Origin: Chloroflexota bacterium
Lineage (GTDB): Bacteria; Chloroflexota; Anaerolineae; Anaerolineales; Villigracilaceae
Direction: 5' to 3'
Length of the DNA stretch: 44,503 bases
Assembly: GCA_021824575.1 (NCBI GenBank)
Contig: JAKAKJ010000034.1
Coordinates: forward strand, 1-44,503
Of the stretch, positions 6,512 through 33,766 are shown one piece after another; position 1 is the first letter of the stretch; each line of letters opens with the position of its first letter. Under the pieces are notes generated by a model. The model did not search any database, had not been told where the DNA came from, and worked only from the letters and a program-made list of their open reading frames with translations. Position numbers and translations under genes: made by a program.

Positions 6512-6557
6512 CTCATTTGAGAGAACTCTGGCAGTCCCGAACTTTTGCTGCATTTGT

Positions 6558-6563: not shown

Positions 6564-6570
6564 AGCAGCC

Positions 6571-7422: not shown

Positions 7423-7470
7423 AGTTTAACTTCAATCCTGACGGCGGATTTTCCTGCCCGTTGCGGAAAA

Positions 7471-8847: not shown

Positions 8848-8869
8848 TTTTCCTTCTTGTTCTGAAATG

Positions 8870-8904
8870 AAGACTTCGGAAGCCTAACAGACTTCCGAAG
8901 TCTT
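8870..8904. terminator. Hairpin between the PAP2 and tryptophanase genes
   Basis: AAGACTTCGGAAG (8870-8882) pairs perfectly with CTTCCGAAGTCTT (8892-8904). The PAP2 gene ends at 8912 on the minus strand, so the hairpin lies just after its stop and before the tryptophanase gene. The T-tract is weak in that direction, so it may terminate transcription only in part. Confidence 0.65.
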
Positions 8905-8911
8905 TTGTGAT

Positions 8912-9883: not shown

Positions 9884-9907
9884 GAATGATCCTTGGACGG
9901 GTTTATA

Positions 9908-10018
9908 TCATTGCAAGCGGGCCGCGGCGAGCGAAGCAATCCCAAATAATGAGGAGATTGCTTCGCCATCGGTCTCGATATGGGTTTCTTCCTGCTTGAC
10001 CATCGGCTCTTGCAATGA
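9908..10018. repeat. MITE-like element with terminal and internal inverted repeats
   Basis: The 169-base gap between the PAP2 and phosphate transporter genes holds a compact 111-base element. Perfect 10-base ends (TCATTGCAAG at 9908-9917 and CTTGCAATGA at 10009-10018) enclose a second perfect pair, GCGAAGCAATC (9931-9941) with GATTGCTTCGC (9956-9966). The layout fits a miniature inverted-repeat element or palindromic intergenic repeat. It has no coding capacity. Confidence 0.7.
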
Positions 10019-10052
10019 CATTTCGTTTGTATTGTGTTAAAAGACAACACTA

Positions 10053-11039
10053 TCAGAATGTAACCTTTAACAACAACCAATAAATTCCCGCCGCCAGTCC
10101 AATCGTGGCGGGGATGGTCAATATCCATGAAACCAGAATGTCGTTTGCGACACTCCAGCGGATTTTGCCAAGGCGCTCCGATGAGCCAACGCCGAGAATG
10201 GACGAGCTGACCAACTGTGTCGTACTAACAGGCAAGCCAAAATAGGAGGACGCGATCATCAGGAACAACGAAGAAGTCTGCGCGGAGAATCCATGCACGG
10301 GACGGATCTTGTAGAACTTTCCGCCTAGTGTGCGGATCAGACGTGCCCCAGCCAAAACAGTTCCCAACATCATGCCGGCGGCGCTTACCGCGATGACCCA
10401 CAGCGGAACACTAAAACCCGGCAGTGTGCCCTCGATGATCAAACCCAGAACGATGACGCCCATCGCCTTTTGTGCATCGTTCGATCCCTGACTCAACGCC
10501 AGGAAGACGGCTGTCAACAACTGGCTCCGCTTAAAGAAGTCATTGATGCGCGGCGACGCGTTTCGCGCCGCGAAAAAAACCAGTTTGGTAAAGATAAAGC
10601 CAGCCACAAAACTCAAGACTGGCGTGACAAATAGAGCGATCAAGACTTTGATCAACCCGGCAACATGGAGCGCACTCAAACCAACTCCGAGCCATGTGGC
10701 GCCGATCAACCCCCCAACCAGTCCGTGCGAGGGGCTGCTCGGCAATCCCAGAAACCACGTCATGAAATTCCATAACACGCAGCTGACCAAGGACGCGATC
10801 AGGATTTTGAGTGTGACGATGTCGGTGTTCACGATCTGCGCGCCGACCGTCTTCGCCACCGCCACGCCGAACAAAAATGGCCCGACGAATTCCGCGAGGC
10901 CGATGATTGTCAGCGCGACCCAGGACCGGAACGCGCGCGAAGAAACCATGGTGGCTACGATATTGCTCGAGCCATGCACTCCATTTAGAAAGTCGAATAC
11001 CAGTGCAAGAATAATAACGATAATGAGCTGCAAGGACAT
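10053..11039 (-). CDS. pit: Inorganic phosphate transporter, PiT family
   Basis: A 328-residue membrane protein with about ten helices that should import inorganic phosphate with H+ or a metal ion. The two family repeats are visible: FDFLNGVHGSSNIVATMV at the N-terminus and ALSQGSNDAQKAMG in the second half, both variants of the PiT signature. PSSPSHGLVGGLIGA is also typical. It begins 4 bases after a DUF47 gene on the same strand. This DUF47-pit pairing is a common bacterial arrangement in which the PhoU-like partner is thought to control the transporter. Confidence 0.93.
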   Translation of the reverse strand: MSLQLIIVIILALVFDFLNGVHGSSNIVATMVSSRAFRSWVALTIIGLAEFVGPFLFGVAVAKTVGAQIVNTDIVTLKILIASLVSCVLWNFMTWFLGLPSSPSHGLVGGLIGATWLGVGLSALHVAGLIKVLIALFVTPVLSFVAGFIFTKLVFFAARNASPRINDFFKRSQLLTAVFLALSQGSNDAQKAMGVIVLGLIIEGTLPGFSVPLWVIAVSAAGMMLGTVLAGARLIRTLGGKFYKIRPVHGFSAQTSSLFLMIASSYFGLPVSTTQLVSSSILGVGSSERLGKIRWSVANDILVSWILTIPATIGLAAGIYWLLLKVTF

Positions 11040-17136: not shown

Positions 17137-17148
17137 ACTGGAGTGAGC

Positions 17149-17505
17149 ATGCAAAATGATTGGCTGTACATTGGTCTGTTCCTTGTGGTGGGAGCGTTGA
17201 TTCCAACCTCAGCGCTTGTAGCTTCATGGATCGTTTCGCCGAAGAAACCCAACCCAATCAAGCAAAGCACCTATGAATGCGGCATGGAAACGGTTGGGGA
17301 GAATTGGGTACAGTTCAAGGCCCAATATTATATTTTTGCCCTCGTGTTTTTGGTGTTCGATGTGGAAACCGTTTTCCTGTTTCCGTGGGCAGTGTCGCTT
17401 GGACAGTTGTCTTTGTTCGCGGTCGTCGAAGGAATTGTTTTTATCCTCATCCTCATTGCCGGACTCGTTTACGCTTGGCGTAAAGGCATGTTGGAGTGGG
17501 TTTAA
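17149..17505 (+). CDS. nuoA: NADH-quinone oxidoreductase subunit A
   Basis: A 118-residue subunit with three membrane helices that sits near the quinone site of complex I. Key signs are KQSTYECGMETVG, with the conserved Cys in the loop after helix 1, and FALVFLVFDVETVFLFPWA, with the conserved Asp and Glu in helix 2. I use the ATG at 17149, 5 bases after GGAG; a GTG two codons upstream overlaps that site. In most genomes nuoB, C and D follow; here nuoH follows, and those genes are absent from the window. Confidence 0.94.
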   Translation: MQNDWLYIGLFLVVGALIPTSALVASWIVSPKKPNPIKQSTYECGMETVGENWVQFKAQYYIFALVFLVFDVETVFLFPWAVSLGQLSLFAVVEGIVFILILIAGLVYAWRKGMLEWV

Positions 17506-17638: not shown

Positions 17639-17655
17639 GATGATTAGGAGTGCCC

Positions 17656-18846
17656 ATGAATTTTTGGACGGACCCTGTTAATTTTGTTGCCCAATGGTTG
17701 TTGGGATTGCTGACCGGCTGGGGAATGCCGGGCTGGCTTGCCAGCCTTTTGGTCCAGTTGATCGGCGTTGTTGTGCTTGTGTCCATGATGATGGTGATTG
17801 ACATCTTCCTGGTCTGGATCGAGCGAAAAGTGGTGGCGCGTTTTCAGGACCGCCTCGGCCCGAATCGTGTTGGACCATTCGGAATCATCCAGCCGTTTGC
17901 TGACATCATCAAGCTGATCATCAAGGAAGATATCACGCCGAACGGCGCGGACAAATTGATCTATAACCTTGCGCCAATATTGTCGTTGATGTCGGTGTTA
18001 TTGCTGTGGGCAATTGTCCCACTGGCTCCGGTCATCCTTGGCGTGGATTTGAATGTCGGCGCGTTGTATATCATTGCCGCCGGTGCGATTGGGACCCTTT
18101 CCATCATTATGGCGGCGTGGGCCTCGAACAACAAATTTGCCCTGCTTGGCGCATTTCGTCAGGTGGCTGTGCTGGTTTCGTTCGAAGTGCCAATGCTCGC
18201 AACCATGCTGATCCCAACCATCCTGGCGGGTTCGATGGGCATGAATGAAATCATTCAGAGTCAAAACGTGTGGTATATCGTCCTCGCACCTCTTGCCGGC
18301 CTGATTTTCATGATCGCGGCGATTGCAGAGCTTGGCCGCGCCCCGTTCGATTTGAATGAAGCAGAGTCTGAAATTGTGGCGGGCTACCATATCGAATATA
18401 CCGGCATGAAGTTCGGCCTCTTCTACGCAGGTGAACTTTTACACGCGTTCACGTTCGGCGGCTTTTGGGCCATATTATTCCTCGGCGGTTATCGGTTTTT
18501 TGGGCTTGAGAATTTGGGTCCGATTGTCGCGGCAGCAATCCTGATGGCAAAAGCGTTGTTTGGCTACTGGCTGATCATGTGGGTCAGATACACCGTGATG
18601 CGTATCCGCATTGATCACATGCTGGCGTTCAACTGGAAATTCCTGACGCCGCTGGCATTCACCCTGCTGATTTTGACGGCTTTGATGAATGCGCTTCTGC
18701 GCGGGACTTCAAGCGGAGTCTACATTCTGGGCATGCTCCTGACAAACGTCATTCTCGGCTGGATCATCGTCGAGATTTTGCGCGGATTCAGCCGGCGCGA
18801 GCGTGAGCGAGTCGAGGGCCCTCAGCAGGCTGTGGCCCATCAATAG
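17656..18846 (+). CDS. nuoH: NADH-quinone oxidoreductase subunit H
   Basis: A 396-residue, eight-helix subunit that links the quinone cavity to the proton channels of complex I. The conserved segment with IERKVVARFQDRLGPNRVGP, followed by FADIIKLIIKEDITP, is near residue 55. The acidic loop ELGRAPFDLNEAESEIV is at about 235. Both are hallmarks of the family. The C-terminal tail has a charged RRERERVEGP stretch. The ATG at 17656 has TAGGAG 5 bases upstream. It is close to nuoJ (11-base gap). Confidence 0.95.
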   Translation: MNFWTDPVNFVAQWLLGLLTGWGMPGWLASLLVQLIGVVVLVSMMMVIDIFLVWIERKVVARFQDRLGPNRVGPFGIIQPFADIIKLIIKEDITPNGADKLIYNLAPILSLMSVLLLWAIVPLAPVILGVDLNVGALYIIAAGAIGTLSIIMAAWASNNKFALLGAFRQVAVLVSFEVPMLATMLIPTILAGSMGMNEIIQSQNVWYIVLAPLAGLIFMIAAIAELGRAPFDLNEAESEIVAGYHIEYTGMKFGLFYAGELLHAFTFGGFWAILFLGGYRFFGLENLGPIVAAAILMAKALFGYWLIMWVRYTVMRIRIDHMLAFNWKFLTPLAFTLLILTALMNALLRGTSSGVYILGMLLTNVILGWIIVEILRGFSRRERERVEGPQQAVAHQ

Positions 18847-18857: not shown

Positions 18858-19367
18858 ATGACTTTTACGCAAATCATATTTCTGATTACCGCGGCCGTCA
18901 TCCTTGGCTCCGCATTGATGGTGGTGTCGACGCGTAATCTGGTTCATGCCGCGTTGTGGCTGATCGTGACGCTGTTCGGTGTGGCTGTCTTGTATGCGAT
19001 TCTCAACGCGAGTTTTCTGGCAGTTGTGCAGGTGGTTGTTTATATCGGTGCGATTGCCATCCTGTTTATCTTTGCCATCATGTTGACGCGCAGAGAGATG
19101 CTTGATCGCGGCCCGCAGTTGAACCGCGGCTGGTGGTTGAACGCAATCATTGCTGTGTTGACGTTCGGCGGGCTGTTCTGGATGCTTCAGGGTTGGAGCG
19201 GTTTCTCGAAGGCCGCAGCCGATTTCCCATCCGGGTACGACGCGGTGGGACAGTTGGGCAAAGCTCTCGTTTCGCCAACCGGATTTGTCCTGCCGTTCGA
19301 AGTCGCGTCCGTTTTATTATTGGCGGCTTTGGTTGGCGCGGTTTACGTCGCATTCACTCGGAAATAG
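18858..19367 (+). CDS. nuoJ: NADH-quinone oxidoreductase subunit J
   Basis: A 169-residue, five-helix subunit of the complex I membrane arm. The conserved third-helix region reads VQVVVYIGAIAILFIFAIML, with the Tyr and Gly of the pi-bulge helix that shifts during coupling. The start has AGGAGG 7 bases upstream. It lies between nuoH and nuoK as in most bacteria, but nuoI, which normally stands between H and J, is missing. Confidence 0.94.
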   Translation: MTFTQIIFLITAAVILGSALMVVSTRNLVHAALWLIVTLFGVAVLYAILNASFLAVVQVVVYIGAIAILFIFAIMLTRREMLDRGPQLNRGWWLNAIIAVLTFGGLFWMLQGWSGFSKAAADFPSGYDAVGQLGKALVSPTGFVLPFEVASVLLLAALVGAVYVAFTRK

Positions 19368-19375
19368 GAGTTCTG

Positions 19376-19684
19376 ATGATCCCGCTTTCCTGGTATCTCA
19401 TTCTTTCAGCGGCTTTGTTCAGCATTGGCTTGTTCGGCGTTCTTTCGCGCAGGAACGCGGTCGCGATTTTGCTTGGCATCGAGTTGATGCTCAACGCGGT
19501 GAATATCAATTTGGTTTCGTTCTGGCGTTACGGCGATGTTTCGATGATGGCTGGACAAGTCTTTGCAATCATTGTCTTCGCGGTGGCGGCATCGGAGGTG
19601 GCTGTCGGCCTGGCGTTGGTCATCTCTGTGTATCGCCGCCGCAATACGGTCATCGCTGATGAAATTGATTTGATGAAGTGGTAG
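19376..19684 (+). CDS. nuoK: NADH-quinone oxidoreductase subunit K
   Basis: A 102-residue subunit with three helices. The two buried glutamates of the proton path are in place: one in LLGIELMLNAVN and one in AASEVAVGLAL. The ATG at 19376 has ATAGGAG 5 bases upstream, and the frame is open further upstream without meaning. nuoL starts 7 bases later. Confidence 0.95.
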   Translation: MIPLSWYLILSAALFSIGLFGVLSRRNAVAILLGIELMLNAVNINLVSFWRYGDVSMMAGQVFAIIVFAVAASEVAVGLALVISVYRRRNTVIADEIDLMKW

Positions 19685-19691: not shown

Positions 19692-21830
19692 ATGACGACT
19701 GAAACATTGATTTGGTTAATTCCTCTTCCACCCATACTTGCATTTTTCCTGATCGTTTTATTTACGAATCGGAACAAGGCGCTCAGCCATACAATCGCGG
19801 TCGGCGCGGCATTTCTATCGTGGCTTGGCGGGATGATCGTTTTCGCACGCGCGATCGGCGTCCCAGAACTCGGCAAGGAACCTTTTGCATCCTCGATCAA
19901 TTGGATTCCAACTGCAGATACCTGGCTCAAGATCGGCGTTTTGATTGATCCACTTTCCGCCGCGGTCTTGTTCTTTGTGGCTTGGACGATTCTGATGATC
20001 TTCCTTTACAGCGTTGGCTATAGCAATTTCGGCCAGCCCAAAGGTGATCATGACATTGCGGGCCTGCCGCCTCATGGCGCAACGATCGAGGAACATGGGC
20101 ATAAACACATGGTTCCTTCTATTGAACCGATGTACTCGCGCTTCTTCGCCTTTATTTCCTTGTTCGCTTTTGGCATGTTCACGCTGGTGGTTTCTGATAA
20201 CCTGCTCACGCTCTTCGTTGGCTGGGAGATCATGGGCTTGTGTTCTTATTTATTGATCGGTTTCTGGTATGGAAAAGAATCAGCGCGCAATGCGGCCATC
20301 AAAGCTTTCATGACCACACGTATTGGTGATGTGTTCATGCTGTTGGGCATCGCCTTCATTTATAGCGCGACCGGTTCACTTTCCTATCACGATATTTTTC
20401 AGCCGCAGGTTTTGCACACCTTGGCAACGGTGCCGACCCCGATCTTTGGACTTTCAGCGGCTGGCCTGATGGGACTCCTGCTCTTCATCGGCACAGTTGG
20501 CAAATCGGCGCAGTTCCCGCTTCACGTCTGGCTGCCGGACGCGATGGAAGGCCCAACACCGGTCAGCGCGATGATCCATGCCGCGACGATGGTGTCCGCA
20601 GGCGTGTACATGGTCATCCGCATGTTCCCGCTCATCAGCCTTGATCCGCATACGATGACAGTGATTGCCGTCATTGGTTCGTTCACAGCTTTGTTTGCCG
20701 CGACGATTGCGGTGGCACAAAACGATATTAAACGCGTGCTGGCTTATTCGACGATTTCACAGCTTGGTTATATGATCGCGGCGCTCGGCGTTGGTGCGTA
20801 TGTGGCCGCCGCGTTTCATCTGATTACGCACGCATTTTTCAAGGCTTTGCTTTTCCTTGGTTCCGGCTCGGTTATTCACGGAATGGAACACGGTGTTTTG
20901 CATACCGGCGATCACGGCGTCGATCCGCAGAACATGTTCAATATGGGCGGCCTGCGTAAGAAGATGCCCATTACGTTCTGGACTTTCTTGATCGGTGGTT
21001 TTGCGCTTTCGGGTTTTCCGCTCATAACTGCAGGCTTCTGGTCGAAGGATGAAATTTTCACGGAAGCATTCGGCAGTGGAAACACTGTGGTCTTTGTTGT
21101 CCTCGCTCTGGCTGCGTTCCTGACCGCTTTCTATACCATGCGCCAGATCACATTGACCTTCCTCGGTAAGCCTCGTACACCTGCGGCGGAACACGCGCAG
21201 GAAACCCCGTGGACGATGACCGTTCCGCTGATTGTCCTCTCGGTTTTCGCGATCGGTTATGGATGGGTTGGCATCCCGGAAGATTTCCTGGGACTCCATC
21301 TTAATCCCAGCTGGTTCCATGAATTTGTTGGCAGCACACTGGCTGTCATGCCTGAAGCAGTTCCGTTCAGTTGGATCGTGCTTGGGACTTCCCTGGTTGT
21401 TGCGCTTGGCGGATTATTTGTCGGTTGGCTGGTGTATCGCAATGTCCAATCGGCCGCAGAAGATAAACTGCAAATTCCTGTGCTCAAAAACAAATACTAC
21501 TTTGACGAAATTTACGATTTTCTTTTCGTCAAGCCTTCCTATTGGTTTGCGGAAACTTTTGTATATCAATGGATGGACAAAGGTTTGATTGATGGCATTC
21601 TCCATTCGTTCGGCAAAGTAACCACTGCCATTGGTTCAGCCGTCCGCAATTATATTGACCTGCTTATCATCAATCGCACCGTTGGCGATGGCACGGCTCA
21701 TATTACACAATGGGCTGGCCGCAACCTGCGCCCAATTCAATCGGGCCGCATCCAACAGTACATGCTGGTCTCGCTGATCATTCTGTTGGCAATTGCCGGT
21801 CTGCTCTTTTATGTTCTGGTGAGAGTCTAG
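19692..21830 (+). CDS. nuoL: NADH-quinone oxidoreductase subunit L, with extended lateral helix
   Basis: A 712-residue antiporter-like proton-pumping subunit, long for the family (about 610 in E. coli). The pump residues are present: Glu179 (WEIMGLCSYLL) and Lys271 (GTVGKSAQFPLHVWLPDA). Two additions explain the length. Residues 112-145 form a His-rich loop between helices, containing PPHGATIEEHGHKHM. The C-terminal lateral-helix region, from KGLIDGILHSFG to RPIQSG, is longer by roughly 28 residues than I recall for the Thermus subunit, with extra IDLLIINRTVGDG and HITQWAGRN pieces. This is what a complex with an added antiporter subunit would need. AGGAG lies 4-5 bases before the ATG. Confidence 0.95.
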   Translation: MTTETLIWLIPLPPILAFFLIVLFTNRNKALSHTIAVGAAFLSWLGGMIVFARAIGVPELGKEPFASSINWIPTADTWLKIGVLIDPLSAAVLFFVAWTILMIFLYSVGYSNFGQPKGDHDIAGLPPHGATIEEHGHKHMVPSIEPMYSRFFAFISLFAFGMFTLVVSDNLLTLFVGWEIMGLCSYLLIGFWYGKESARNAAIKAFMTTRIGDVFMLLGIAFIYSATGSLSYHDIFQPQVLHTLATVPTPIFGLSAAGLMGLLLFIGTVGKSAQFPLHVWLPDAMEGPTPVSAMIHAATMVSAGVYMVIRMFPLISLDPHTMTVIAVIGSFTALFAATIAVAQNDIKRVLAYSTISQLGYMIAALGVGAYVAAAFHLITHAFFKALLFLGSGSVIHGMEHGVLHTGDHGVDPQNMFNMGGLRKKMPITFWTFLIGGFALSGFPLITAGFWSKDEIFTEAFGSGNTVVFVVLALAAFLTAFYTMRQITLTFLGKPRTPAAEHAQETPWTMTVPLIVLSVFAIGYGWVGIPEDFLGLHLNPSWFHEFVGSTLAVMPEAVPFSWIVLGTSLVVALGGLFVGWLVYRNVQSAAEDKLQIPVLKNKYYFDEIYDFLFVKPSYWFAETFVYQWMDKGLIDGILHSFGKVTTAIGSAVRNYIDLLIINRTVGDGTAHITQWAGRNLRPIQSGRIQQYMLVSLIILLAIAGLLFYVLVRV

Positions 21831-21843: not shown

Positions 21844-23364
21844 ATGATGGACTTTCTCAACACTCATCTTCTTAGTTTGATTTTGTTCTTCCCGGCTGTT
21901 TCGGCAGTGGTAATGCTCTTCCTGCCGAAAGATGAAGCCAAACTTTTGCGCTGGTTTGCGCTCGTCGCCAGCCTGATTCCGTTTGCCCTTTCGCTTGCGC
22001 TGTGGTTTGGCTTCAATCCAAGTGCGGCTGGCTACCAGTTTGAAGAGAAATACATTTGGTATGCTGCGATTGGTTCTTCGCTTCATCTTGGCGTGGACGG
22101 TCTTTCACTGACGATGGTTCTGTTGACCACACTGTTGACGCCGCTTGCCATTCTTGCGTCATTCAGCGTGACCGACCGCGTCAAGCCGTACATGATGCTG
22201 TTCCTGTTCCTTGAAACCGGAATGCTCGGCGTCTTCATGGCGGTTGACCTGCTGATCTTCTTTGTTTTCTGGGAAATCGGACTTGTCCCGATGTACTTCC
22301 TCATCAATCAGTGGGGCAGTGCCAACAAGGATTATGCGTCGCTTAAGTTCATGATCTATACCATGGGCGGATCGCTCGGACTCCTGCTCGGCATTCAATT
22401 GCTTGGCGCTCTCTTCGGGACTTTCGATCTGGCTACCATTACGGCAAAGTGGACTTCGGCTCAGGGCTTTTTGCTTGGCTTCCCGATCTCGACGGTGAAG
22501 ACTGTTATTTTCTGGGCGTTTGTGATTGCGTTCGCGATCAAAGTCCCGATTTGGCCATTCCACACATGGCTGCCCGACGCGCACACTGAAGCGCCGACGG
22601 CGGGTTCGATGTTGCTGGCTGGCGTTCTGCTCAAACTCGGCGCGTACGGATTTTTGCGACTCGTCCTGCCACTTTATCCGGAGCAGGCAAAATCATTCGC
22701 CTGGGCTTTGGCCCTGCTTGCAACCGCCGCGATTATCTTCGGCGCGTTTGCCGCTTATGGGCAAACGGACTTCAAGCGGCTGGTCGCGTATTCATCGGTC
22801 AACCACATGGGCTTTGTCGTGCTCGGTATCGCCGCGGCCGCTTTGGCGGCAGGAACGGCTGACGCGAGAATCGCGATGAACGGCGCAATTCTTCAAATGT
22901 TCAATCATGGATTATCTGCAGCTGGAATGTTTTTCCTCGTCGGTGTCATCTATGAACGGACTCACACTCGCAATCTCAACGAGTTTGGCGGCCTGTTCCC
23001 TCTGGTCCCGATCTATGGCGGCATCCTGATCTTCACATCCATGGCGTCGCTTGGTTTGCCCGGCTTGAATGGGTTTGTGTCTGAGTTCCTCGTAGTCCGA
23101 GGTTCATATCCGATCCTGACTCCGTACACGGCAATCTCCATGCTCGGATTGCTCTTTACCGGCGCGTATATTTTGAAGGGAATCAAACAGGTCCTCCATG
23201 GCCCGATGAACGAACAATGGGCGCACGGCGAACATAAACTGACGGAGATCAACACGCGCGAAATTATCGTGATGGCTCCTCTGATGGCTTTGATCCTGGT
23301 CATCGGCATCTGGCCGGCGTGGATCTTGAACGTTATCAATAACGCCGTGATGCACTTGTTCTAA
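21844..23364 (+). CDS. nuoM: NADH-quinone oxidoreductase subunit M (canonical copy)
   Basis: A 506-residue antiporter-like subunit with 14 helices. The pump residues are present: Glu144 in FFVFWEIGLVPMYFL, Lys233 in AFAIKVPIWPFHTWLPDAH, a Lys in AGVLLKLGAYGF and the late Glu in GLPGLNGFVSEFLV. It is therefore expected to translocate one proton per cycle. GTAGGAG lies just before the ATG (an alternative ATG is one codon later). A second, different NuoM follows 7 bases downstream. Confidence 0.95.
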   Translation: MMDFLNTHLLSLILFFPAVSAVVMLFLPKDEAKLLRWFALVASLIPFALSLALWFGFNPSAAGYQFEEKYIWYAAIGSSLHLGVDGLSLTMVLLTTLLTPLAILASFSVTDRVKPYMMLFLFLETGMLGVFMAVDLLIFFVFWEIGLVPMYFLINQWGSANKDYASLKFMIYTMGGSLGLLLGIQLLGALFGTFDLATITAKWTSAQGFLLGFPISTVKTVIFWAFVIAFAIKVPIWPFHTWLPDAHTEAPTAGSMLLAGVLLKLGAYGFLRLVLPLYPEQAKSFAWALALLATAAIIFGAFAAYGQTDFKRLVAYSSVNHMGFVVLGIAAAALAAGTADARIAMNGAILQMFNHGLSAAGMFFLVGVIYERTHTRNLNEFGGLFPLVPIYGGILIFTSMASLGLPGLNGFVSEFLVVRGSYPILTPYTAISMLGLLFTGAYILKGIKQVLHGPMNEQWAHGEHKLTEINTREIIVMAPLMALILVIGIWPAWILNVINNAVMHLF

Positions 23365-23371: not shown

Positions 23372-24889
23372 ATGATGACTTTTCCTGTATTGAGTGTGAT
23401 TGTCTTTACTCCGCTTGTCGCGGCGTTGATCATCCTGATGATCCCTGCTCAGCGGAAAACAGAAGTGCGCGGTGTGGCCTTGGCTGCCGCGACCTTCGCC
23501 TTGCTGCTTTCGCTGTGGGTCTATATTCAATATTTGACTCAGCATTTGACAGGTTATCAATTCGTTGAAAAATATGATTGGCTGCCCATGCTCGGCATCA
23601 GCCTGCACTTTGGCGTGGATGGAATCAGCGCTCCGTTGGTTCTTTTGACCGGCGTGGTGATGTTTACGGGCGTGCTGATATCGTGGGGCGATAATAACCC
23701 ACATGTGATGGCTGGCATTCAGGATCGGCCGCGTGAGTTCTTTGCCTTCCTGTTCATCCTCGCCAGCGGCGTGTTCGGCGTTTTTGCCTCGCTCGACCTG
23801 TTCATGTTGTTCTTTTTCTATGAGATCGCCGTGTTCCCGATGTATTTGCTGATCGTCATCTGGGGCTGGATACAGACGCGCGAATATGCGGCAATGAAGT
23901 TGACTCTTTATCTGTTCATCGGTTCGGTTGTTGCATTGGTCGGTGCGTTGGCGATGTACTGGGTTGCGGGTCAGAACACCGGCATTTATACCTTTGACAT
24001 GCTCCAGCTTGAAAAAGCCGGTTTCTCCGCTTCATTCCAAAACTTATGGTTCCTGCCGGTGTTTTTTGGCTTTGCAGTGTTAGGCGGCATTTGGCCGTTC
24101 CATAACTGGTCGCCAGATGGACACGTTGCCGCACCGACCGCGGTCTCCATGTTCCATGCAGGCGTGTTAATGAAGTTGGGTGCGTTTGCGGCATTGCGCG
24201 TTGGAATTATGTTGTTGCCCGAAGGTGCGAAGCATTGGTCGTGGGTCATCATGCTCTGTGCGGGTGTGGCGGTTGTGTATGGCGCTTTCATCGCTTTCGT
24301 TCAAACGGACCTGAAATATATGATTGGCTTCTCGTCTGTTTCACACATGGGATTAGTGATGCTCGGCTTATCCACGCTGGATAAGAATGGCTTGACGGGC
24401 GCGGGCGTTCAAATGTTCTCGCATGGTGTGATGACGGCTCTCTTCTTTGCTGTCACCGGTATGATCTATGATCGTTCGCACACGCGTCAAATTCCTGAGC
24501 TTGGCGGCATGAACAAAGTCATGCCGTTTGCCGCGATTGGTTTCATAATCGGCGGCCTGGTTTCGATGGGCATGCCGGGCTTTTCCGGTTTCATTGCCGA
24601 GTTCCCGATCTTCCTCGGTGTTTGGCAATCACAATGGCTTGTGGCTGTGATTGCAAGCATTTCCATTATTATCACGGCGGCCTACATCATGATGAACATC
24701 CGCAAAGTTTTCTTTGGCAAGATGCCGGAGAAACTCGAAGGACACATGACGGATGTTACAGTGCTGGATAAGGTTGCCATCACCACGCTTTGTGTTTTGA
24801 TGATTGGTATCGGCATCTTCCCGTCAGTAATGGTTCCGATGGTGCAAACGGGCGTGCAGCATATCCTGACCTTGCTGGGAGGCGCATAA
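23372..24889 (+). CDS. Second NuoM-like subunit, lacking the TM7 lysine
   Basis: A 505-residue antiporter-like subunit of the NuoM family. Glu151 (FFFYEIAVFPMYLL), Lys268 (GVLMKLGAFAAL) and the late Glu (GFSGFIAEFPIF) match pump residues. However the segment before WPFHNW reads FAVLGGI, where the neighbouring NuoM has FAIKVPI, so the conserved lysine is replaced by Leu237. Also WSPDGHVAAPTAVS replaces WLPDAHTEAPTAGS. It belongs to the nuo cluster, with AGAGGTG upstream and nuoN starting inside its stop codon. It is the fourth antiporter-like subunit beside L, M and N. Whether it pumps is open, because the missing lysine is essential in the known subunits. Confidence 0.92.
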   Translation: MMTFPVLSVIVFTPLVAALIILMIPAQRKTEVRGVALAAATFALLLSLWVYIQYLTQHLTGYQFVEKYDWLPMLGISLHFGVDGISAPLVLLTGVVMFTGVLISWGDNNPHVMAGIQDRPREFFAFLFILASGVFGVFASLDLFMLFFFYEIAVFPMYLLIVIWGWIQTREYAAMKLTLYLFIGSVVALVGALAMYWVAGQNTGIYTFDMLQLEKAGFSASFQNLWFLPVFFGFAVLGGIWPFHNWSPDGHVAAPTAVSMFHAGVLMKLGAFAALRVGIMLLPEGAKHWSWVIMLCAGVAVVYGAFIAFVQTDLKYMIGFSSVSHMGLVMLGLSTLDKNGLTGAGVQMFSHGVMTALFFAVTGMIYDRSHTRQIPELGGMNKVMPFAAIGFIIGGLVSMGMPGFSGFIAEFPIFLGVWQSQWLVAVIASISIIITAAYIMMNIRKVFFGKMPEKLEGHMTDVTVLDKVAITTLCVLMIGIGIFPSVMVPMVQTGVQHILTLLGGA

Positions 24890-26361
24890 TGTTTACATCT
24901 ACCGCTTTTCTTTCGATCCTCCCCGAAACGCTCATTCTGATTCTCGGTGTGATTTTGCTGGTTGTTGAGCCATTCTGGAAGGTTAAAGACCCGGCGTCTG
25001 GGGGGGATGAGCAACGCCGGAATGCAGGCTGGCTGACGGCTGGCGGTTTACTTGCTGTTTTGGTCGTTAGTATTTTGGTTGGCCGCCCCGGTGACCCCAC
25101 TTCGACATTCGGCGGTTCCATCCGTTTCGATTGGCTCGGTTTTTTCTTCAAGATGCTCTTCGTCTTCGGCGCAGGCATCACAGCTCTGCTTTTGATGGAT
25201 CATGAAAAAGTCGGGCGCCGCGGTGAAGCATACGTGTTGCTGCTGGCTTCCACCATCGGCATGTGCCTGATGGCCTCCGCTGCTGACCTCGTCATGCTCT
25301 ATCTTGCCATTGAAACGACCTCCATTCCGCTTTACGTTTTGGCGGGTTTCATGCTGACCGATGAACGCTCGACCGAAGCAGGCTTCAAATATTTGTTGTT
25401 CGGTGCGATGGTCTCGGCCATCATGCTGTACGGTTTTAGCCTGCTGTATGGGTTCACCGGGACGACGAATCTTTACGCTCTGGCTGATGCGTTCAAAGCC
25501 GGACAGTTGGCGGCTCCCGTTTTATTTGGCTTGATCATCCTCGTCGTGGTTGGACTCGGCTTCAAGGTCTCGGTGGTTCCGTTCCACTTTTGGGCGCCGG
25601 ATGTGTACGAAGGCGCTCCGACCCCAATCTCCGGTTTTCTTTCAACCGCATCCAAAGCCGCGGGCTTTGCTGTGATTGCCCGACTGTTCCTTGTAGTCTT
25701 TCACGGTGTGACTGTTGATTGGGCCACGGTCTTTGCCATTTTGTCTGCGGTTACGATGACGGTAGGCAACCTGCTTGCATTGCCGCAGAAAAACCTAAAG
25801 CGAATGCTGGCCTATTCGTCCATTGCCCACGCTGGTTATGCCATGATTGGGATCGTAGCGGTATCCAAATTGGGAATTGCCAGCGTAGTCTTTTATCTGC
25901 TGGCTTATATCGTGACTAACCTGGCTGCCTTCGGAATCGTCATGACGGTTGGCCGCGTCACTGGCTCGGATGAATACGATGCGTATCGCGGGCTAAGCCG
26001 ACGCTCACCGTGGCTGGCTTTGGTCATGCTGGCCGCGTTCCTGTCGCTGGCGGGAATGCCGCCCTTTGGCGGATTCATTGCAAAGGTCCTGGTCTTTGCC
26101 GCAGGCATCCAGGCCAATTACATTTGGCTGGTTATCATCGGCATCCTGAATTCCATTGTGGGACTCTACTACTACTTGAACGTGTTGAAGTATGTGTACC
26201 TGTTCCGCATGGAGAAGGAAGACGAAGAGGCGCATCCCATTGCGGTTACGCGTCCGTATGTGATTGCGTTGGTGGTGCTGGTACTCGGTATCATCCTGCT
26301 TGGGACGGTCTTTGCCCCGTGGTTCGGCTTCTCGAACGCGGCCGCAATGAACCTGTTTTGA
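24889..26361 (+). CDS. nuoN: NADH-quinone oxidoreductase subunit N
   Basis: A 490-residue antiporter-like subunit that lies closest to the quinone module. Its Glu142 (YLAIETTSIPLYVL) and Lys226 (LGFKVSVVPFHFWAPD) are conserved, followed by VYEGAPTPISGFLSTASKAA. Its ATG overlaps the stop of the previous gene by one base (TAATG), with GGGAGG 6 bases before, so translation is coupled. It is the last nuo gene here, and the F0 operon follows with its own promoter. Confidence 0.95.
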   Translation: MFTSTAFLSILPETLILILGVILLVVEPFWKVKDPASGGDEQRRNAGWLTAGGLLAVLVVSILVGRPGDPTSTFGGSIRFDWLGFFFKMLFVFGAGITALLLMDHEKVGRRGEAYVLLLASTIGMCLMASAADLVMLYLAIETTSIPLYVLAGFMLTDERSTEAGFKYLLFGAMVSAIMLYGFSLLYGFTGTTNLYALADAFKAGQLAAPVLFGLIILVVVGLGFKVSVVPFHFWAPDVYEGAPTPISGFLSTASKAAGFAVIARLFLVVFHGVTVDWATVFAILSAVTMTVGNLLALPQKNLKRMLAYSSIAHAGYAMIGIVAVSKLGIASVVFYLLAYIVTNLAAFGIVMTVGRVTGSDEYDAYRGLSRRSPWLALVMLAAFLSLAGMPPFGGFIAKVLVFAAGIQANYIWLVIIGILNSIVGLYYYLNVLKYVYLFRMEKEDEEAHPIAVTRPYVIALVVLVLGIILLGTVFAPWFGFSNAAAMNLF

Positions 26362-26408: not shown

Positions 26409-26687
26409 ATGGCGCAATCGAACGAAGAACGCAAGAACATTATCAACACAGTATTGATTGTAATGGTAGGGCAGGTCGGATGCCTGACTCTCATTATTGT
26501 TCTGGCATCCTTGTTCGGTGGGTTGTGGCTCGATAGAACTTTCAATACGAAACCGTTGTTCACATTGATCCTGCTTTTTGCAGGCATCCCTCTCTCGGTC
26601 ATTCTGATGCTGGTTATTGCGCGTCGGACGATTGCGAGATTGAAATCTAAACCCGACACAGAAGAGAAGAAAGATCTCTCTGCATAG
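26409..26687 (+). CDS. AtpZ/AtpI-like ATP synthase accessory protein
   Basis: A 92-residue protein with two membrane helices. The first holds LIIVLASLFGGLWLDRTF, where GLWLD is a common AtpZ/AtpI-type piece, and the second is PLFTLILLFAGIPLSVILML; a charged C-terminus follows. Such proteins lead many bacterial atp operons and are linked to c-ring assembly or to Mg/Ca uptake. It starts at the first base region of its transcript (see the promoter just upstream). atpB begins 8 bases after its stop. Confidence 0.8.
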   Translation: MAQSNEERKNIINTVLIVMVGQVGCLTLIIVLASLFGGLWLDRTFNTKPLFTLILLFAGIPLSVILMLVIARRTIARLKSKPDTEEKKDLSA

Positions 26688-26695
26688 GAGGCAGC

Positions 26696-27703
26696 TTGGA
26701 AACTCAGAAACGCAGACCCTGGCGGCGTTGGGTCGTATTGGCGCTGATGATCGTTGGATTCGTTGTTGGCGGGATGACCTATTTTGCTCCCGTTCAACCG
26801 GAGATCACCTTCGCAGCTGAACGGCTGGTCGAGGAGCCTCTATTCACCTTGCCGGTCATTGGCCCGTTCTATCTGGTGAATACAATCCCGCCATTGATAT
26901 TCACGGTGCTTTTGGTGCTTGTCCTCGCGTTCTATACAAACCGCTCCATGAAGAAAAGCGCTCAGACCGACCTGGTCCCGCGTGGAATTGGGAATTTGAT
27001 GGAAGCGTTTTTTGAATTGCTTTATAACATGACCGAAGGTGCGACGGGCGCAAAATGGGCGCCCGTGATCTTCCCGTGGTTTGCCACGATCATGTTTTAT
27101 GTGTTATTCGCTAACCTTCTCAAACTGATTCCGGGCTTCGAATCAATCGGTATCTTGCGCCAGGTAGCTCAGGGACACCCTGTCACAGGAGGCATCTTGC
27201 AACCGGGTGAGGTGCCTAATGGTTATGTGCTTGTACCGTTCCTGCGCGGTGTCTCCATAGACCTGAATTTCACTTTAGCCATCGCCTTGATTTCTGTCTT
27301 TATGACGCAGGTCATCGGCATACAGACGCAGGGATTTGGTTACTTCTCAAAATTTTTCAATGTGCGCAATATGTTCAAAGTTCCGTTCTTCGGTGCGATG
27401 GACTTTCTAGTTGGCCTGCTTGAGATCATCTCGGAAATCTCCAAGATCATTTCGTTTGCCTTCCGTCTTTTTGGCAATATGTTTGCGGGCTTGGTGTTGG
27501 TGGCGATTGTTTCTTCATTGTTGGGCAAGATCAGTATTCTGCCCTCGATGATTCTGCTGTTCGAGCTCTTTGTCGGTGTCATCCAGGCATTTGTGTTCGG
27601 CATGTTGACGATGGTCTTCATGGCGCAGGCTACGCAGGGTCACGGTCACGAAGAAGAGCATGAGGAAACTCATGTGGAACCTGCGGAAGCTCACGCATTA
27701 TAA
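26696..27703 (+). CDS. atpB: ATP synthase F0 subunit a
   Basis: A 335-residue membrane subunit that forms the proton half-channels of ATP synthase. The essential Arg is R257 in SFAFRLFGNMFAG. The C-terminus carries an unusual acidic, His-rich tail (HGHEEEHEETHVEP). No ATG fits the N-terminus; I use TTG at 26696, preceded by AGGAGG at 26686-26691 with a 4-base gap. A segment near residues 150-185 (GHPVTGGILQPGE) is a periplasmic loop insertion. It lies between the AtpZ/I-like gene and atpE. Confidence 0.93.
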   Translation: METQKRRPWRRWVVLALMIVGFVVGGMTYFAPVQPEITFAAERLVEEPLFTLPVIGPFYLVNTIPPLIFTVLLVLVLAFYTNRSMKKSAQTDLVPRGIGNLMEAFFELLYNMTEGATGAKWAPVIFPWFATIMFYVLFANLLKLIPGFESIGILRQVAQGHPVTGGILQPGEVPNGYVLVPFLRGVSIDLNFTLAIALISVFMTQVIGIQTQGFGYFSKFFNVRNMFKVPFFGAMDFLVGLLEIISEISKIISFAFRLFGNMFAGLVLVAIVSSLLGKISILPSMILLFELFVGVIQAFVFGMLTMVFMAQATQGHGHEEEHEETHVEPAEAHAL

Positions 27704-27735
27704 AAACTCAAGGAAATAATCAGGAGGCTTATACA

Positions 27736-27975
27736 ATGGAAGGTAATATTTTGGATGCTGCCCGATTCGTGGGCGCTGGCTTGGCGATGATCGGCGCGGC
27801 GGGTGCGGGTGTGGGGATCGGTCTCAGCGTGCAAGGCGCTCTTACCGGTATGGCTCGGAATCCGGATACTTATGGTAATCTGCTGACGAACATGATCCTG
27901 GGCATCGCCTTTTCGGAAGCGATCGCGATCTATTGTATGGTGATCGCGTTCCTCATGCTCTTCAAAGTTGTGTAA
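27736..27975 (+). CDS. atpE: ATP synthase F0 subunit c
   Basis: A 79-residue hairpin of two helices, the proton-carrying rotor subunit. The ion-binding acid is Glu61 (AFSEAIAIY). The loop ARNP links to the F1 stalk. Helix 1 has GVGIGLSVQ; the Gln expected for sodium binding in the GVGQG position is replaced by Ile, and the residues after Glu61 are Ala and Ile, so I predict H+ rather than Na+ coupling. AGGAGG lies 7 bases upstream of the ATG. Confidence 0.95.
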   Translation: MEGNILDAARFVGAGLAMIGAAGAGVGIGLSVQGALTGMARNPDTYGNLLTNMILGIAFSEAIAIYCMVIAFLMLFKVV

Positions 27976-27992
27976 TTGGATAGGAGCATCAA

Positions 27993-28727
27993 ATGGAAGC
28001 GCTTGGTATTAATCTCGGTCTTCTTGTTGTTCAAATCATCGCTTTTATCATTGTCTTCCTGACCCTTCAGGCATGGGTCTATAAGCCGATGCTGAACATG
28101 ATGGAGTCCCGCAAGAAGAAGATCGCTCAGGGCATGGAAGATGCTCGTATCGCGGCGGATGCTCGCGCAGCGGCGGAGAAGGACGCGGCGAAGATCGTAG
28201 CGGACGCCCAGGCTCAGGCCGCTCGCGTCGTGAACGAAGCAACGGCTCGCGCGGAAAAAGCGGCGGCTCAAGTCAAGGCAGACGCGGACAAGGAAATCGT
28301 CAAATTGCGCGAAGGTGCGGCAAACGAAGCGGCGGTGGAACGCGACCGCATTCTCGGCGACCTGCGCGGACAGGTTGCGGCGCTGGCAATTGCCGCGGCT
28401 CAAAAGTTGATTGGCGATGCCATTGATGAAAAGCGCCAGCACGCGTTGATTGACGAGTTTTTCTCCGGCGTCAAATCCGGAAAGGTGGTTGTGCTGGATG
28501 GGACGGATTTCAAGGGCAGTTCGGCTGAAGTTACCAGCGCATTGCCATTGAGTCAGACCGAACAGGACGCGGTTAAAAAAGATGTGCTTGCCAAAGTCGG
28601 CGCACAGGCTGTAACGTTCCGTGTTGATCCATCCATTCTCGGCGGCATTGTCATTAAAGTCGGTGACAAAGTCGTGGATGGTTCTGTCTCTGGAAAACTC
28701 GAGGGCCTGCGGCAAAGTCTGAAATAG
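27993..28727 (+). CDS. atpF: ATP synthase F0 subunit b fused to the delta C-terminal domain
   Basis: A 244-residue fusion. Residues 1-30 are a membrane helix (LLVVQIIAFIIVFLTLQAWV), then a long Ala-rich coiled coil runs to about 145 as in subunit b. From about residue 180 the sequence changes to a delta-type ending, with LSQTEQDAVKKDV followed by GGIVIKVGDKVVDGSVSGKL, which matches the delta C-terminal domain. The delta N-terminal helical bundle, about 105 residues that bind the top of F1, is absent. Other b/delta fusions known to me, as in mycobacteria, keep a full delta. No F1 genes follow; a terminator does. Confidence 0.88.
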   Translation: MEALGINLGLLVVQIIAFIIVFLTLQAWVYKPMLNMMESRKKKIAQGMEDARIAADARAAAEKDAAKIVADAQAQAARVVNEATARAEKAAAQVKADADKEIVKLREGAANEAAVERDRILGDLRGQVAALAIAAAQKLIGDAIDEKRQHALIDEFFSGVKSGKVVVLDGTDFKGSSAEVTSALPLSQTEQDAVKKDVLAKVGAQAVTFRVDPSILGGIVIKVGDKVVDGSVSGKLEGLRQSLK

Positions 28728-28909: not shown

Positions 28910-30580
28910 ATGAATTTAAAAACACTAAAACAGATCTTCGCCGAGCTTTCGTTCGACCATTCTCCCGCGCAATTACCCGATGTTCCAATCAGCGGTATCG
29001 CCATTGACAGCCGCGCAGTCAAGCCTGGCTATCTCTTTGTTGCAATGAAAGGCGGTTCTGCGGATGGACATGATTATATTCAAAGTGCGATTCAAAACGG
29101 CGCGGCGGCGATTGTGGGAGAGAATGAATTAAGCGGACTTGCGGTTCCTTATGTTCGACTCGAAAATTCGCGCCAGGCCCTGACCTGGATCGCGGGCGCG
29201 TTTTACGATTGGCCTGGCCGCAAGCTGACGATGATCGGCGTCACTGGCACGGACGGTAAAACCACAACGACAAATTTGATCTATCAAATACTGCTTGCTG
29301 CAAATATCAAAGCAGGGATGATTTCAACCGTCAACGCGGTGATCGGCGGCGAAGTTTTGGATACCGGCCTTCACGTCACAACGCCGGACGCGCATGATGT
29401 TCAATATTATCTGGCGAAGATGGTCGAGGCCGGATTAACTCATGTTGTGCTGGAGACAACCTCGCATGGCTGGGCGCAGTATCGCACGGACGCCTGCGAA
29501 TTTGATGTCGGCGTGATTACCAACATCACGCATGAGCACCTTGATCAGCACGGTTCCTATGAAAACTATCGCGCGGCGAAAGGAAGGCTGTTTGCAAGCC
29601 TTGAGACGACTCTGCCGAAGAAGCAAGGTAATCCGCGGCTGGCTGTTTTGAATCGCGATGACCGCTCTTATGAATATCTTGACGCGATCACAAAAGTAAA
29701 AAAGGTAAGCTATGGATTGGGAGGAAACGCGGATGTGCATGCCGAGAGAATCGAATACAGCCCGTCCGGGCTTCAATTTGAAGCGGCGCTTAATTCTCTG
29801 CGCGTAGCCATAAAGAGTAAACTGATCGGTGAATACAATATCTCAAATTGCCTCGCGGCGCTGACTGCGACCGTCATTGGTTTGGGTATCGAACCCGAAA
29901 TCGCGGCGCAAGGTATCGCCTCATTGGAAGGTGTCCCGGGCCGTATGGAGCGAATTGATATGGGGCAAAGCTTTACCGCCATCGTTGATTTCGCTCATAC
30001 GCCCAATGCGTTGAAGGTTACATTGGAAGCCGCACGTGAAATGCTTTCCTCGTCAACTGCAAAGAGTGCGAAGGCCGCGAAGAAAGAGCCAAATCTTGGT
30101 GTTCTTGACGAGCTTCGCGGTTCAGAAAAACAAAGCGAGACATCGCGCGTCATTGTGGTATTCGGTTCGGCGGGATTACGCGATAAAGAGAAACGCCGCA
30201 TGATGGCAGAGACGTCCACAGAGCTGGCCGATCTAACGGTATTGACTGCCGAGGACCCGCGCACAGAATCGCTGGATGGAATCCTCAAGGAAATGGCAGC
30301 CGGCGCGAGGTCCCGCGGCGGACGCGAGGGCGAGACGTTTTGGCGCGTCGCAGATCGCGGCGAAGCCATCAAGTTCGCGTTGAGTCTGGCGCATCCCGGC
30401 GACATCGTTCTGTCATGTGGAAAGGGCCATGAACAATCCATGTGTTTTGGAAAGATCGAATATGCGTGGGATGACCGCGTTGCGATGCGCGCCGCGCTGG
30501 CAGAGTTGTTACACGTCGAGGGGCCGAAAATGCCTTATCTGCCGACTCAGGATAAAACGGAAGTAGAGTGGTTGAAATGA
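28910..30580 (+). CDS. murE: UDP-MurNAc-tripeptide synthetase (MurE) with a repeat-derived insertion
   Basis: A 556-residue Mur ligase, about 50 longer than usual. It adds the third amino acid to UDP-MurNAc-dipeptide in peptidoglycan synthesis. The N-terminal domain has IDSRAVKPGYLFVAMKG, the ATP loop is GVTGTDGKTTTT near residue 116, and NITHEHLDQHGS is typical of MurE. The amino-acid motif is EDPR rather than DNPR, so the third residue cannot be assumed to be diaminopimelate. Residues about 380-412, from SSSTAKSAK to GSEKQSE, form an insertion between a helix and the strand VIVVFG. The DNA there resembles an intergenic inverted repeat. The gene overlaps the GNAT gene (ATGA). Confidence 0.9.
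   Translation: MNLKTLKQIFAELSFDHSPAQLPDVPISGIAIDSRAVKPGYLFVAMKGGSADGHDYIQSAIQNGAAAIVGENELSGLAVPYVRLENSRQALTWIAGAFYDWPGRKLTMIGVTGTDGKTTTTNLIYQILLAANIKAGMISTVNAVIGGEVLDTGLHVTTPDAHDVQYYLAKMVEAGLTHVVLETTSHGWAQYRTDACEFDVGVITNITHEHLDQHGSYENYRAAKGRLFASLETTLPKKQGNPRLAVLNRDDRSYEYLDAITKVKKVSYGLGGNADVHAERIEYSPSGLQFEAALNSLRVAIKSKLIGEYNISNCLAALTATVIGLGIEPEIAAQGIASLEGVPGRMERIDMGQSFTAIVDFAHTPNALKVTLEAAREMLSSSTAKSAKAAKKEPNLGVLDELRGSEKQSETSRVIVVFGSAGLRDKEKRRMMAETSTELADLTVLTAEDPRTESLDGILKEMAAGARSRGGREGETFWRVADRGEAIKFALSLAHPGDIVLSCGKGHEQSMCFGKIEYAWDDRVAMRAALAELLHVEGPKMPYLPTQDKTEVEWLK
30050..30125. repeat. Inverted-repeat element inside murE
   Basis: AACTGCAAAG on the left and CTTCGCGGTT on the right (its complement AACCGCGAAG matches 8 of 10) border a stretch of GCGAAGG/CGCGAAG units. 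The style resembles the degenerate repeat at 4282-4359. The length (about 76-98 bases) keeps the murE frame open. Confidence 0.55.
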
Positions 30581-31402: not shown

Positions 31403-33766
31403 TTAATATGCCTGAGTGTGTCGTTCGGTTCCCAAAATACCTGTAACTTTGTAGTACCAGATCTTCAGGCTGTCCAATATCAACATGGCAAGAACCGTGA
31501 TAATAGCCAATACAACAATATGTTGCAAAGAAACTGACGCCATCACCAAACCAAAGATAGCCATCAGTATGGCAAGAACGATATTGATAGCCACCATGCC
31601 GGCTACCCACTTGCTCGGCCAAAATGACCAGAATGCGTCACGAGTACGCGTCATAAGAATGGTTTCCATAGCAGAGAAGATCAAGTAGAGAAACATTAAG
31701 GAACTGATTTGGCCGGCACTTAACCCTTGAATTTCAAGGTAGAACCAGATAAGTCCCAGCCCAAGAGCCAGCCAGCCAATGGTGAATATGGCGGATATCT
31801 TGGCAAGTTGAGGCATATTCCATTTTTCGGGGACTTTTGTAGGCCACGCTTTGTCGGTTCCCAGCGTTAGGGTAACCATATCATTCATCACGACAATAAA
31901 CACAATTAGACTCAATGAAACCGGGAAAAATCCGGTAAAGATAAATCCAAAGGTCAGAAGCGCCGCCAATTCGGCTGTACGCGCTAACTTGGTTATTGTC
32001 CACGTCATCATTCTACGATAAACACGGTGGCCGCTATCGATTACTTTGGTGATGTCAGATAATTGGGGTTTGGTTAGAACGACCTTGGCAGCCGATTTTG
32101 CAACATCGGTGGCGGTGCTGACGGCAATACCCACATCCGCCTGTTTCAGCGCAGGCGCATCGTTGATGCCATCCCCGGTCATTCCAACTACCATTCCTAA
32201 TTTCTGTATCGCTTGAACAATCTTGTACTTGTCTTCAGGGTAAACATTCGCAAACCCGTCGAAACCCAACGGATCCGATAGTGCATCCTCCAAGGTTCCG
32301 ATTCTGCTGCCAATGCCCACTTGCTCAGCAATCGCCTTGGCGGTGCTTACTGTATCACCCGTCAGCATGATCACGCGGATGCCTAATTCTTTGATTTTTG
32401 CAACTGATTCCTTGGCGTCATTTCGCGGTGAATCAGCCAACGCAATTAATCCTCTGCAAACCAGTTTCTCGTCTTCGCCAGAAGCGACCGCCAAAACCCT
32501 GGAACCTTTCGAACTTAGCGCATTGACCTGATCTATAAATTGATCCGGTATCTTTGCAATATCAGCAATGACTGTGGGGGACCCAAGAACCACATCCAGC
32601 TGGCTGCCATTCTGGTTAATACGAGACCTGGATAGTTTGTGAACCGGATCGAATGCCGTAAAAGATATTCTCTCGGGCATGGTTAGTTTTTGGCCTTTCA
32701 AAGCTCCGAGTATTGCGGTGCTGATGGAGTCATTGGATGTGTCATCACTTGCGGCGGCCGCCAACCTTAGCAATTCGGCATCTGACTGTCCATCAAATGG
32801 ACTAAGTTCGGCCACTTCCGGGCGATTGTTCGTTAGTGTCCCCGTCTTGTCAACAAGGATTATTTCGAGGCTGGCAGCTTCCTGGATTCCAGTCAGCCCC
32901 GTTACCAACACATGCTCTTTCGCTAAATTTTTGGCCTCCAATGAATTGGCCACAACAAAGCTTGATGGCATCGAGATTGGAATGGTCGCAATAAACAAAA
33001 TAACCAGGAACGGCAATAGTTCCTGCCAGGGAGTACCTTTCATGAATGCAGTGATAACCAGGATAACAGCGAGGGCAACATCCAAATACGCCAGATACCG
33101 GACGATGTTAAATAGCAATGATTGCAAACGACCCGGCGCTTCAGCGGTGCGAACCAACTCGGCAGTCTTGCCATACGAGCTTTTTATCCCAGTTGCAGTT
33201 ACCCTCGCAATGACTTCACCATGACTAATCGTTGATGCAGAAAAAATTGTTGCGCCAGTTTCTTTGTTTACATCAATCGATTCGCCGGTCAATGCAGACT
33301 CATCCACGCTCACGGTTCCGTTAATGATTTCCATGTCCGCCGGCACAATATCGCCAACTCGAGCGTGTACGATGTCTCCGGGAACCAGTTCACGGGATAA
33401 TATCGTCTGCCATATTCCGTTTCTCAACGTTCTGGCGCTGATTTGAAGCTGCTGATGCAAATATCCAATCGCGTTTTTTGCGCGCTTCTCTTGGATTTCG
33501 CCAATTACAGCGGAAAAAATAAGCAGCAGAAAAATAACACCAGCCTGAACGCCTTTACCCAGTATTAATTCAAATATCATAGCTGCCTCAAGCAGCCAAG
33601 GGATTGGCCCCCACATCCGTTTTAGGGTGCCCATAACCGGGCCAACATGCTTTTCCGGAATTTCATTGTAACCATATTGCGTTCGTTTGGCCTGAATATC
33701 GGCTTCGTTTAGCCCGGTACCTTGATATGAATTTTCAATGCCCGCCGTATCTTTACTTTGAGTCAT
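31403..33766 (-). CDS. Plasma-membrane H+-ATPase (P3A-type P-type ATPase)
   Basis: A 787-residue ATP-driven proton pump. The phosphorylated Asp is D306 in VDKTGTLT, the actuator loop is SALTGES, and the nucleotide-site motifs are MLTGDT and GMTGDGINDAP. In the sixth helix region, VVMNDMVTLTLGTDKA has Asp629 at the place of the proton-acceptor Asp of plant and fungal H+-ATPases, which supports H+ as the ion. Helix 4 reads IPISMPSS, a variant of the usual P-x-x-P. The base composition looks AT-richer than the flanks. AAGGAG lies 6 bases before the ATG. It may have been acquired with the adjoining IS110 region. Confidence 0.9.
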   Translation of the reverse strand: MTQSKDTAGIENSYQGTGLNEADIQAKRTQYGYNEIPEKHVGPVMGTLKRMWGPIPWLLEAAMIFELILGKGVQAGVIFLLLIFSAVIGEIQEKRAKNAIGYLHQQLQISARTLRNGIWQTILSRELVPGDIVHARVGDIVPADMEIINGTVSVDESALTGESIDVNKETGATIFSASTISHGEVIARVTATGIKSSYGKTAELVRTAEAPGRLQSLLFNIVRYLAYLDVALAVILVITAFMKGTPWQELLPFLVILFIATIPISMPSSFVVANSLEAKNLAKEHVLVTGLTGIQEAASLEIILVDKTGTLTNNRPEVAELSPFDGQSDAELLRLAAAASDDTSNDSISTAILGALKGQKLTMPERISFTAFDPVHKLSRSRINQNGSQLDVVLGSPTVIADIAKIPDQFIDQVNALSSKGSRVLAVASGEDEKLVCRGLIALADSPRNDAKESVAKIKELGIRVIMLTGDTVSTAKAIAEQVGIGSRIGTLEDALSDPLGFDGFANVYPEDKYKIVQAIQKLGMVVGMTGDGINDAPALKQADVGIAVSTATDVAKSAAKVVLTKPQLSDITKVIDSGHRVYRRMMTWTITKLARTAELAALLTFGFIFTGFFPVSLSLIVFIVVMNDMVTLTLGTDKAWPTKVPEKWNMPQLAKISAIFTIGWLALGLGLIWFYLEIQGLSAGQISSLMFLYLIFSAMETILMTRTRDAFWSFWPSKWVAGMVAINIVLAILMAIFGLVMASVSLQHIVVLAIITVLAMLILDSLKIWYYKVTGILGTERHTQAY

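Follow-up and report, generated by a model that had tools for sequence, protein, structure and literature searches.

Complex I with a second NuoM, the 2M complex I, has already been published (Chadwick et al. 2018) and is described in PMC7117926, PMC9040806, PMC6606698 and PMC8004040 (papers given by PMC number, here and below, are cited from the sections consulted). It has a second nuoM between nuoM1 and nuoN, a longer NuoL helix and a separate nuoBCDI group with a fused nuoCD, and the nuoM2 of Anaerolinea thermophila is named in the published description; the sections consulted mention neither a missing TM7 lysine nor a Lys-less sole NuoM. In the leading models of how electron transfer is coupled to distant proton pumping, the TM7 Lys–TM5 Glu pair serves as the switch. 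In E. coli NuoM, K234–E144 is an ion-pair switch (PMC13324432), and the TM7/TM5 pair is likewise described in PMC10212512, with TM8 as the central link.

The second NuoM and its TM7 site

The window, i.e., the whole stretch of 44,503 nucleotides analysed here from a Chloroflexota bacterium, carries a gene cluster in the order nuoA-H-J-K-L-M1-M2-N that shares these traits with the published complex. Its second nuoM lies between nuoM1 and nuoN, the lateral helix of NuoL contains an insertion, and likely partner genes, a second nuoB, a fused nuoCD and nuoI, stand on another contig of the same genome (C64).

17143..17505, + strand: nuoA (profile match)
17650..18846, + strand: nuoH (profile match)
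18858..19367, + strand: nuoJ (profile match)
19376..19684, + strand: nuoK (approximate start; ORF listed as 19133-19684, family match from its residue 82 on)
19692..21830, + strand: nuoL with a lengthened C-terminal helix, 91 aa versus 66 in E. coli (profile match, alignment)
21594..21671, + strand: approximate place of the nuoL helix insertion (read off the alignment by eye)
21844..23364, + strand: nuoM1, the first NuoM, of Lys type with Lys233 (profile match, alignment)
23372..24889, + strand: nuoM2, for the Lys-less second NuoM (505 aa; TIGR01972) in a complex I of 2M type
24889..26361, + strand: nuoN (start overlaps the nuoM2 stop by one base, TAATG)

The nuoM2 product (M2) scores 444.1 bits against the NuoM family TIGR01972, over the curated cut-off of 263.8, and its nearest named relatives come from a Chloroflexi MAG (99%) and an Anaerolineae MAG (89%). 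Its AlphaFold model (pLDDT 84, pTM 0.88) has the NuoM/ND4 fold over the full length, with Z 50.7 and an rmsd of 1.9 over 492 aligned residues to the best PDB chain, 8e9g_M; the model is weak at residues 241-260 (block pLDDT 51-55).

24080..24082, + strand: codon 237 of nuoM2, TTA (Leu), at the TM7 lysine site (Lys234 of E. coli NuoM)
23822..23824, + strand: codon of Glu151, the TM5 Glu and former partner of the TM7 Lys (Glu in 212/214 distinct Lys-less cores)
24173..24175, + strand: codon of Lys268, the central Lys of TM8 (Lys at 268 or 267 in 214/214 Lys-less cores)
24599..24601, + strand: codon of Glu410, the TM12 Glu (kept in 214/214 distinct Lys-less cores)

Leu237 aligns with the TM7 Lys of 8qby_M and with that of E. 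coli NuoM, NuoN and NuoL; within the window its partners are Lys233 of NuoM1, Lys271 of NuoL and the TM7 Lys of NuoN, which is Lys226 counted from the ATG at 24889 and Lys228 counted from 24883. The preliminary description of this DNA had reported exactly this, i.e., a second NuoM with Leu237 in place of the TM7 Lys, the lysine kept in NuoL, NuoM1 and NuoN with the same numbering, and Glu151, Lys268 and a late Glu (Glu410) retained, and the alignment bears it out in each respect. M2 thus has Leu237 together with Glu151 where the canonical TM7 Lys/TM5 Glu pair is expected, and it does have the canonical combination of a TM8 Lys (or His) with a TM12 Lys or Glu, here Lys268 and Glu410. The same description had called the TM7 Lys central to proton transfer. 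The residue is indeed absent, but current models treat it as part of an ion-pair switch and assign the role of central carrier in NuoM to the TM8 Lys.

In an initial set of NuoM sequences, all 126 distinct M2 lack the lysine (118 Leu, 8 Thr), and the other NuoM carry it in 135/135 cases. We then sampled NuoM-type ORFs across Chloroflexota, 358 at first (among them both window proteins and E. coli NuoM; some genomes count twice) and, with 60 loci fetched later, 418 in the final set, which comprises 381 distinct cores. Residue 237 is Lys in 182, Leu in 167 and Thr in 9 of the 358 ORFs. The distinct cores of the final set divide into 214 Lys-less and 167 with Lys. Gene position predicts the TM7 state: a NuoM encoded after another NuoM is always Lys-less (146/146), a NuoM preceding another always has the Lys (139/139), and at the position between nuoL and nuoN both states occur, with 37 loci of Lys type and 17 Lys-less (counts that leave out 19 of the 358 ORFs, those with an unseen or other neighbour and the two window rows). 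Leu or Thr is fixed at 237 throughout the Lys-less sequences, and in columns 222-242 of 176 of them K, R or H occurs only at 224-225, the start of TM7, with no Lys one turn away. A sequencing error or isolated mutation at 237 is ruled out by 214 distinct Lys-less cores that belong to one clade. The loss of the lysine is real, and it is wider than previously stated. No report of a missing TM7 lysine in NuoM2 was found in the literature searched, a body of work outside which the original 2M paper (Chadwick et al. 2018) lies.

Phylogeny and genome setting of the Lys-less NuoM

In a NuoM tree of 96 representatives with columns 222-275 removed (quick search; SH-aLRT supports, no bootstrap), the 37 Lys-less sequences form one clade (support 100) of two sister parts, a sole type (14 rows, 98) and a second-NuoM type (23 rows, 97); nuoL was not seen for one sole-type row (L201), nor was the preceding gene for two second-type rows (L133, L159). 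Next to this clade stand the Lys-type sole NuoM proteins of other Chloroflexota (99). The sister group of M2 itself consists of sole NuoM subunits in complex I clusters of other Chloroflexota, with ordinary NuoL helices. M2 is neither simply an additional M1 nor a recent duplicate of it: one clade of M1 and the 2M-type M2 alone is rejected (AU p 8.2e-5, dlnL 150). M1 joined with all Lys-less sequences in one clade is not rejected (p 0.156), nor is one clade of 2M and sole Lys-less loci in the NuoL and NuoN trees (p 0.589 and 0.367, respectively).

The NuoL helix segment measures 91-99 aa across the 37 2M loci compared (the window has 91, E. coli 66), 68 aa in 17 sole Lys-less loci and a median of 68 aa (range 27-98) in 36 Lys-type sole loci. 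Because NuoL of the sole Lys-less loci bears no trace of the insertion, these lengths suggest that a Lys-less NuoM was at work alone before the 2M complex existed.

Two further observations concern M1. In six 2M clusters (L181, L183, L185 and L234-L236) M1 is strongly diverged, with about 270-330 bits to the window M1, and keeps its Lys. One locus (L148, genome G116, about 3560-10814) has a tandem nuoL-nuoM-nuoL-nuoM. Its first NuoM groups with M1 and its first NuoL with those of 2M loci, but up to the contig end it shows no M2 of the Lys-less kind.

Within the window, nuoN is followed by what we take, by ORF look, to be ATP synthase genes (26409-28727 and 28910-30580), which seem to end after a b-like subunit; the next ORF is presumably MurE-like, and an ORF at 31403-33766 on the - strand, close to both of these gene groups, presumably encodes a P-type proton ATPase. 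A BLAST search with the E. coli proteins, which may miss distant ones, found no nuoEFG in the window cluster, nor any E/F/G match within the initial 19.9 kb of C64. A full 14-gene set lies on a further contig (C81) of the same genome. Another over-cutoff NuoM is present in 21/22 2M genomes, with Lys at the TM7 site in the two that were read (the window genome and G010), and likewise in 17/18 sole-type Lys-less genomes, with Lys in all 17; the one that lacks it has a completeness of 87%. In Chloroflexus aggregans, the 2M cluster and the 14-gene cluster are both transcribed (PMC8004040).

This setting would fit a Lys-less arm adapted to another electron donor or to electron flow in reverse, with the driving force rather than the proton route being tuned. 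Apart from the missing E/F/G matches and the further NuoM in nearly every genome, this reading can draw on the reverse flow to ferredoxin that has been proposed for the Nitrospira 2M complex (PMC6606698); however, E/F/G-like genes do occur in one Lys-less cluster (L272), some 3 kb past nuoA, and only short flanks were read for the other clusters. We regard it as improbable as the main explanation, yet it is compatible with the one preferred below, in which proton transfer is kept and the base of the switch has moved.

Conserved path residues and a candidate replacement base

Besides Lys268 and Glu410, the distinct Lys-less cores keep Lys315 (214/214), His325 (214/214) and His351 (202/214), and the kept M2 residues match the path residues of E. 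coli NuoM (PMC13324432). There are exceptions: in some families His351 is Gly (12 cores) or the TM8 Lys is shifted by one (19 cores), and residue 151 is Asp in L198 and Gly in L201. In one family (f53; L178/L179, L238 and L240) M2 also gains a Glu at residue 266 on TM8 (GVEMK), adjoining the central Lys. In pairwise comparison (1081 pairs, from 47 of the 94 full 2M loci), M2, M1 and NuoL each average an identity of 0.536, and NuoN one of 0.455.

The preliminary description had left two options, a subunit conducting by another route or a spacer that does not pump. A structural spacer, which would lengthen the arm and move no protons, could account for the absence of the canonical TM7 Lys from every M2 read, and HycC of E. 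coli formate hydrogenlyase, which also has Leu at this site, has a structure in which no route to the P-side is clear (PMC9474812). However, an idle spacer is disfavoured by the conserved path residues and by a rate of evolution as low in M2 as in M1 and NuoL, and the Lys-less type is the only NuoM in 17 loci; we give the spacer little credence. The other route is favoured by the same conservation and slow evolution, and by a base at one of two other sites.

24155..24157, + strand: codon of His262 on TM8, candidate replacement base (His in 162/176 Lys-less ORFs, 0/182 Lys-type)
23840..23842, + strand: codon of Met157, a TM5 residue (its place is taken by Lys in all 13 Lys-less ORFs with Leu262; aligns with Ser150 of E. 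coli NuoL)

Site 262 is Leu in 181 Lys-type ORFs and Val in 1; in the Lys-less ORFs it is His in 162, Leu in 13 and Ala in 1. All 13 Lys-less ORFs with Leu262 have Lys157, and of 485 positions it is site 157 that ranks first for carrying a base when His262 is absent. None of the 162 His262 ORFs has K, R or H there, and none of the 182 Lys-type ORFs has Lys. Of sites 237, 262 and 157, exactly one is basic in 357 of the 358 ORFs and in all 60 later loci, so that the final 418 ORFs comprise 417 with one base, one with none and none with two; the sole exception, L198, lacks a base at every one of these sites and has Asp at 151. The later loci (59 Leu plus His, 1 Lys plus Leu) held no new His-less family, and the Lys157 part of the pattern is therefore not retested by them. 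The 13 Lys157 ORFs come from two families, one in the window's order (f53) and one outside it (f11). Two separate gains of Lys157 are not shown, a single origin being compatible with the tree (p 0.597).

From these sequences, the TM7 base seems to have moved to His262 on TM8 or to Lys157 on TM5. Since all Lys-less sequences form one clade, the Lys/His swap counts as a single event and may be coincidence; the one-base pattern suggests that a base is still required at this place. In E. coli NuoL, the TM8 residue His254 hydrogen-bonds Ser150, which connects to the TM7 Lys229 (PMC13358369). Ser150 aligns with site 157, and His254 and site 262 each lie 25 residues past the TM7 site, although the alignment sets them one column apart. 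Given these contacts and the shared spacing, sites 237, 262 and 157 probably line one cavity. Proton transfer from Lys229 to His254 is unfavourable in NuoL simulations (PMC13358369), which weighs against a simple hop.

An M2 with a working vertical path but no gate would be loosely coupled to its neighbours and would only relay charge, or slip. The vertical path is conserved, and the residue lost belongs to the switch rather than being the central carrier (PMC13324432, PMC10212512); in NuoN, not NuoM, replacing the same Lys (K217A) leaves 46-56% NADH oxidase activity and, in two different assays, 68% or 109% of pumping, K247A and K395A being severe (PMC13073174). Nevertheless, the one-base pattern speaks for a base that is still needed, and in 17 loci the Lys-less protein is the sole NuoM between NuoN and NuoL, where lacking a gate would be costly. 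An ungated M2 is thus unlikely in our judgment, if better placed than the spacer.

We favour, at slightly better than even, an explanation in which M2 belongs to an old, conserved NuoM clade that lost the TM7 lysine once. The residues of the path from Lys315 to Lys268 on TM8, and through His325/His351 to Glu410 on TM12, are kept, and the base that pairs with or gates against Glu151 on TM5 would now be His262 on TM8, in a way similar to NuoL, or Lys157 on TM5 in two families. M2 would still take part in proton transfer, with the TM5–TM7 switch rewired onto the TM8 His; we infer that His262 may have taken over the switch role, that M2 may share one complex with M1 and that it may move protons. 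The more specific proposal, that the clade runs without the NuoM Lys–Glu switch on a NuoL-like TM8 His or a TM5 Lys and served first as sole NuoM before being joined to a Lys-type NuoM in the 2M complex, is tentative and falls short of an even chance.

Should M2 indeed pump, any model that requires each antiporter-like subunit to have a TM7 Lys is either wrong or incomplete. A natural, conserved subunit that lacks the switch, the sole NuoM in some lineages, offers a direct test of those models, and the one-base pattern names the exact point mutants whose outcome the hypothesis predicts. The Lys-less M2 is also relevant to the question of whether a fifth proton is really pumped by the 2M complex.

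Comparison with other antiporter-like subunits

HycC, a published precedent for Leu in place of the TM7 Lys, resembles M2 in having Leu208 at that site with the TM5 Glu (Glu135) kept, as its authors noted (PMC9474812), in retaining the TM8 Lys and TM12 Glu, and in a similar L-A-G turn after the TM7 site. Mutants of HycC Glu135 or Lys239 do not significantly lower H2 production (PMC9474812), and kept residues thus need not be active. Unlike M2, which has His262, HycC has no base at sites 157, 237 and 262 (Ala, Leu and Phe), and its input Lys is replaced by Gln285. It also carries an ND3-like extension and is not part of complex I proper (PMC9474812). MbsH of the MBS complex has a non-Lys TM7 site too, but the residue is a charged one, Glu219, rather than Leu (PMC7684303). 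A parallel for the proposed base is the TM8 histidine switch of NuoL and MrpA, with a His on TM8 25 residues past the TM7 site, and the difference is that NuoL keeps its TM7 Lys whereas M2 does without it (PMC13358369).
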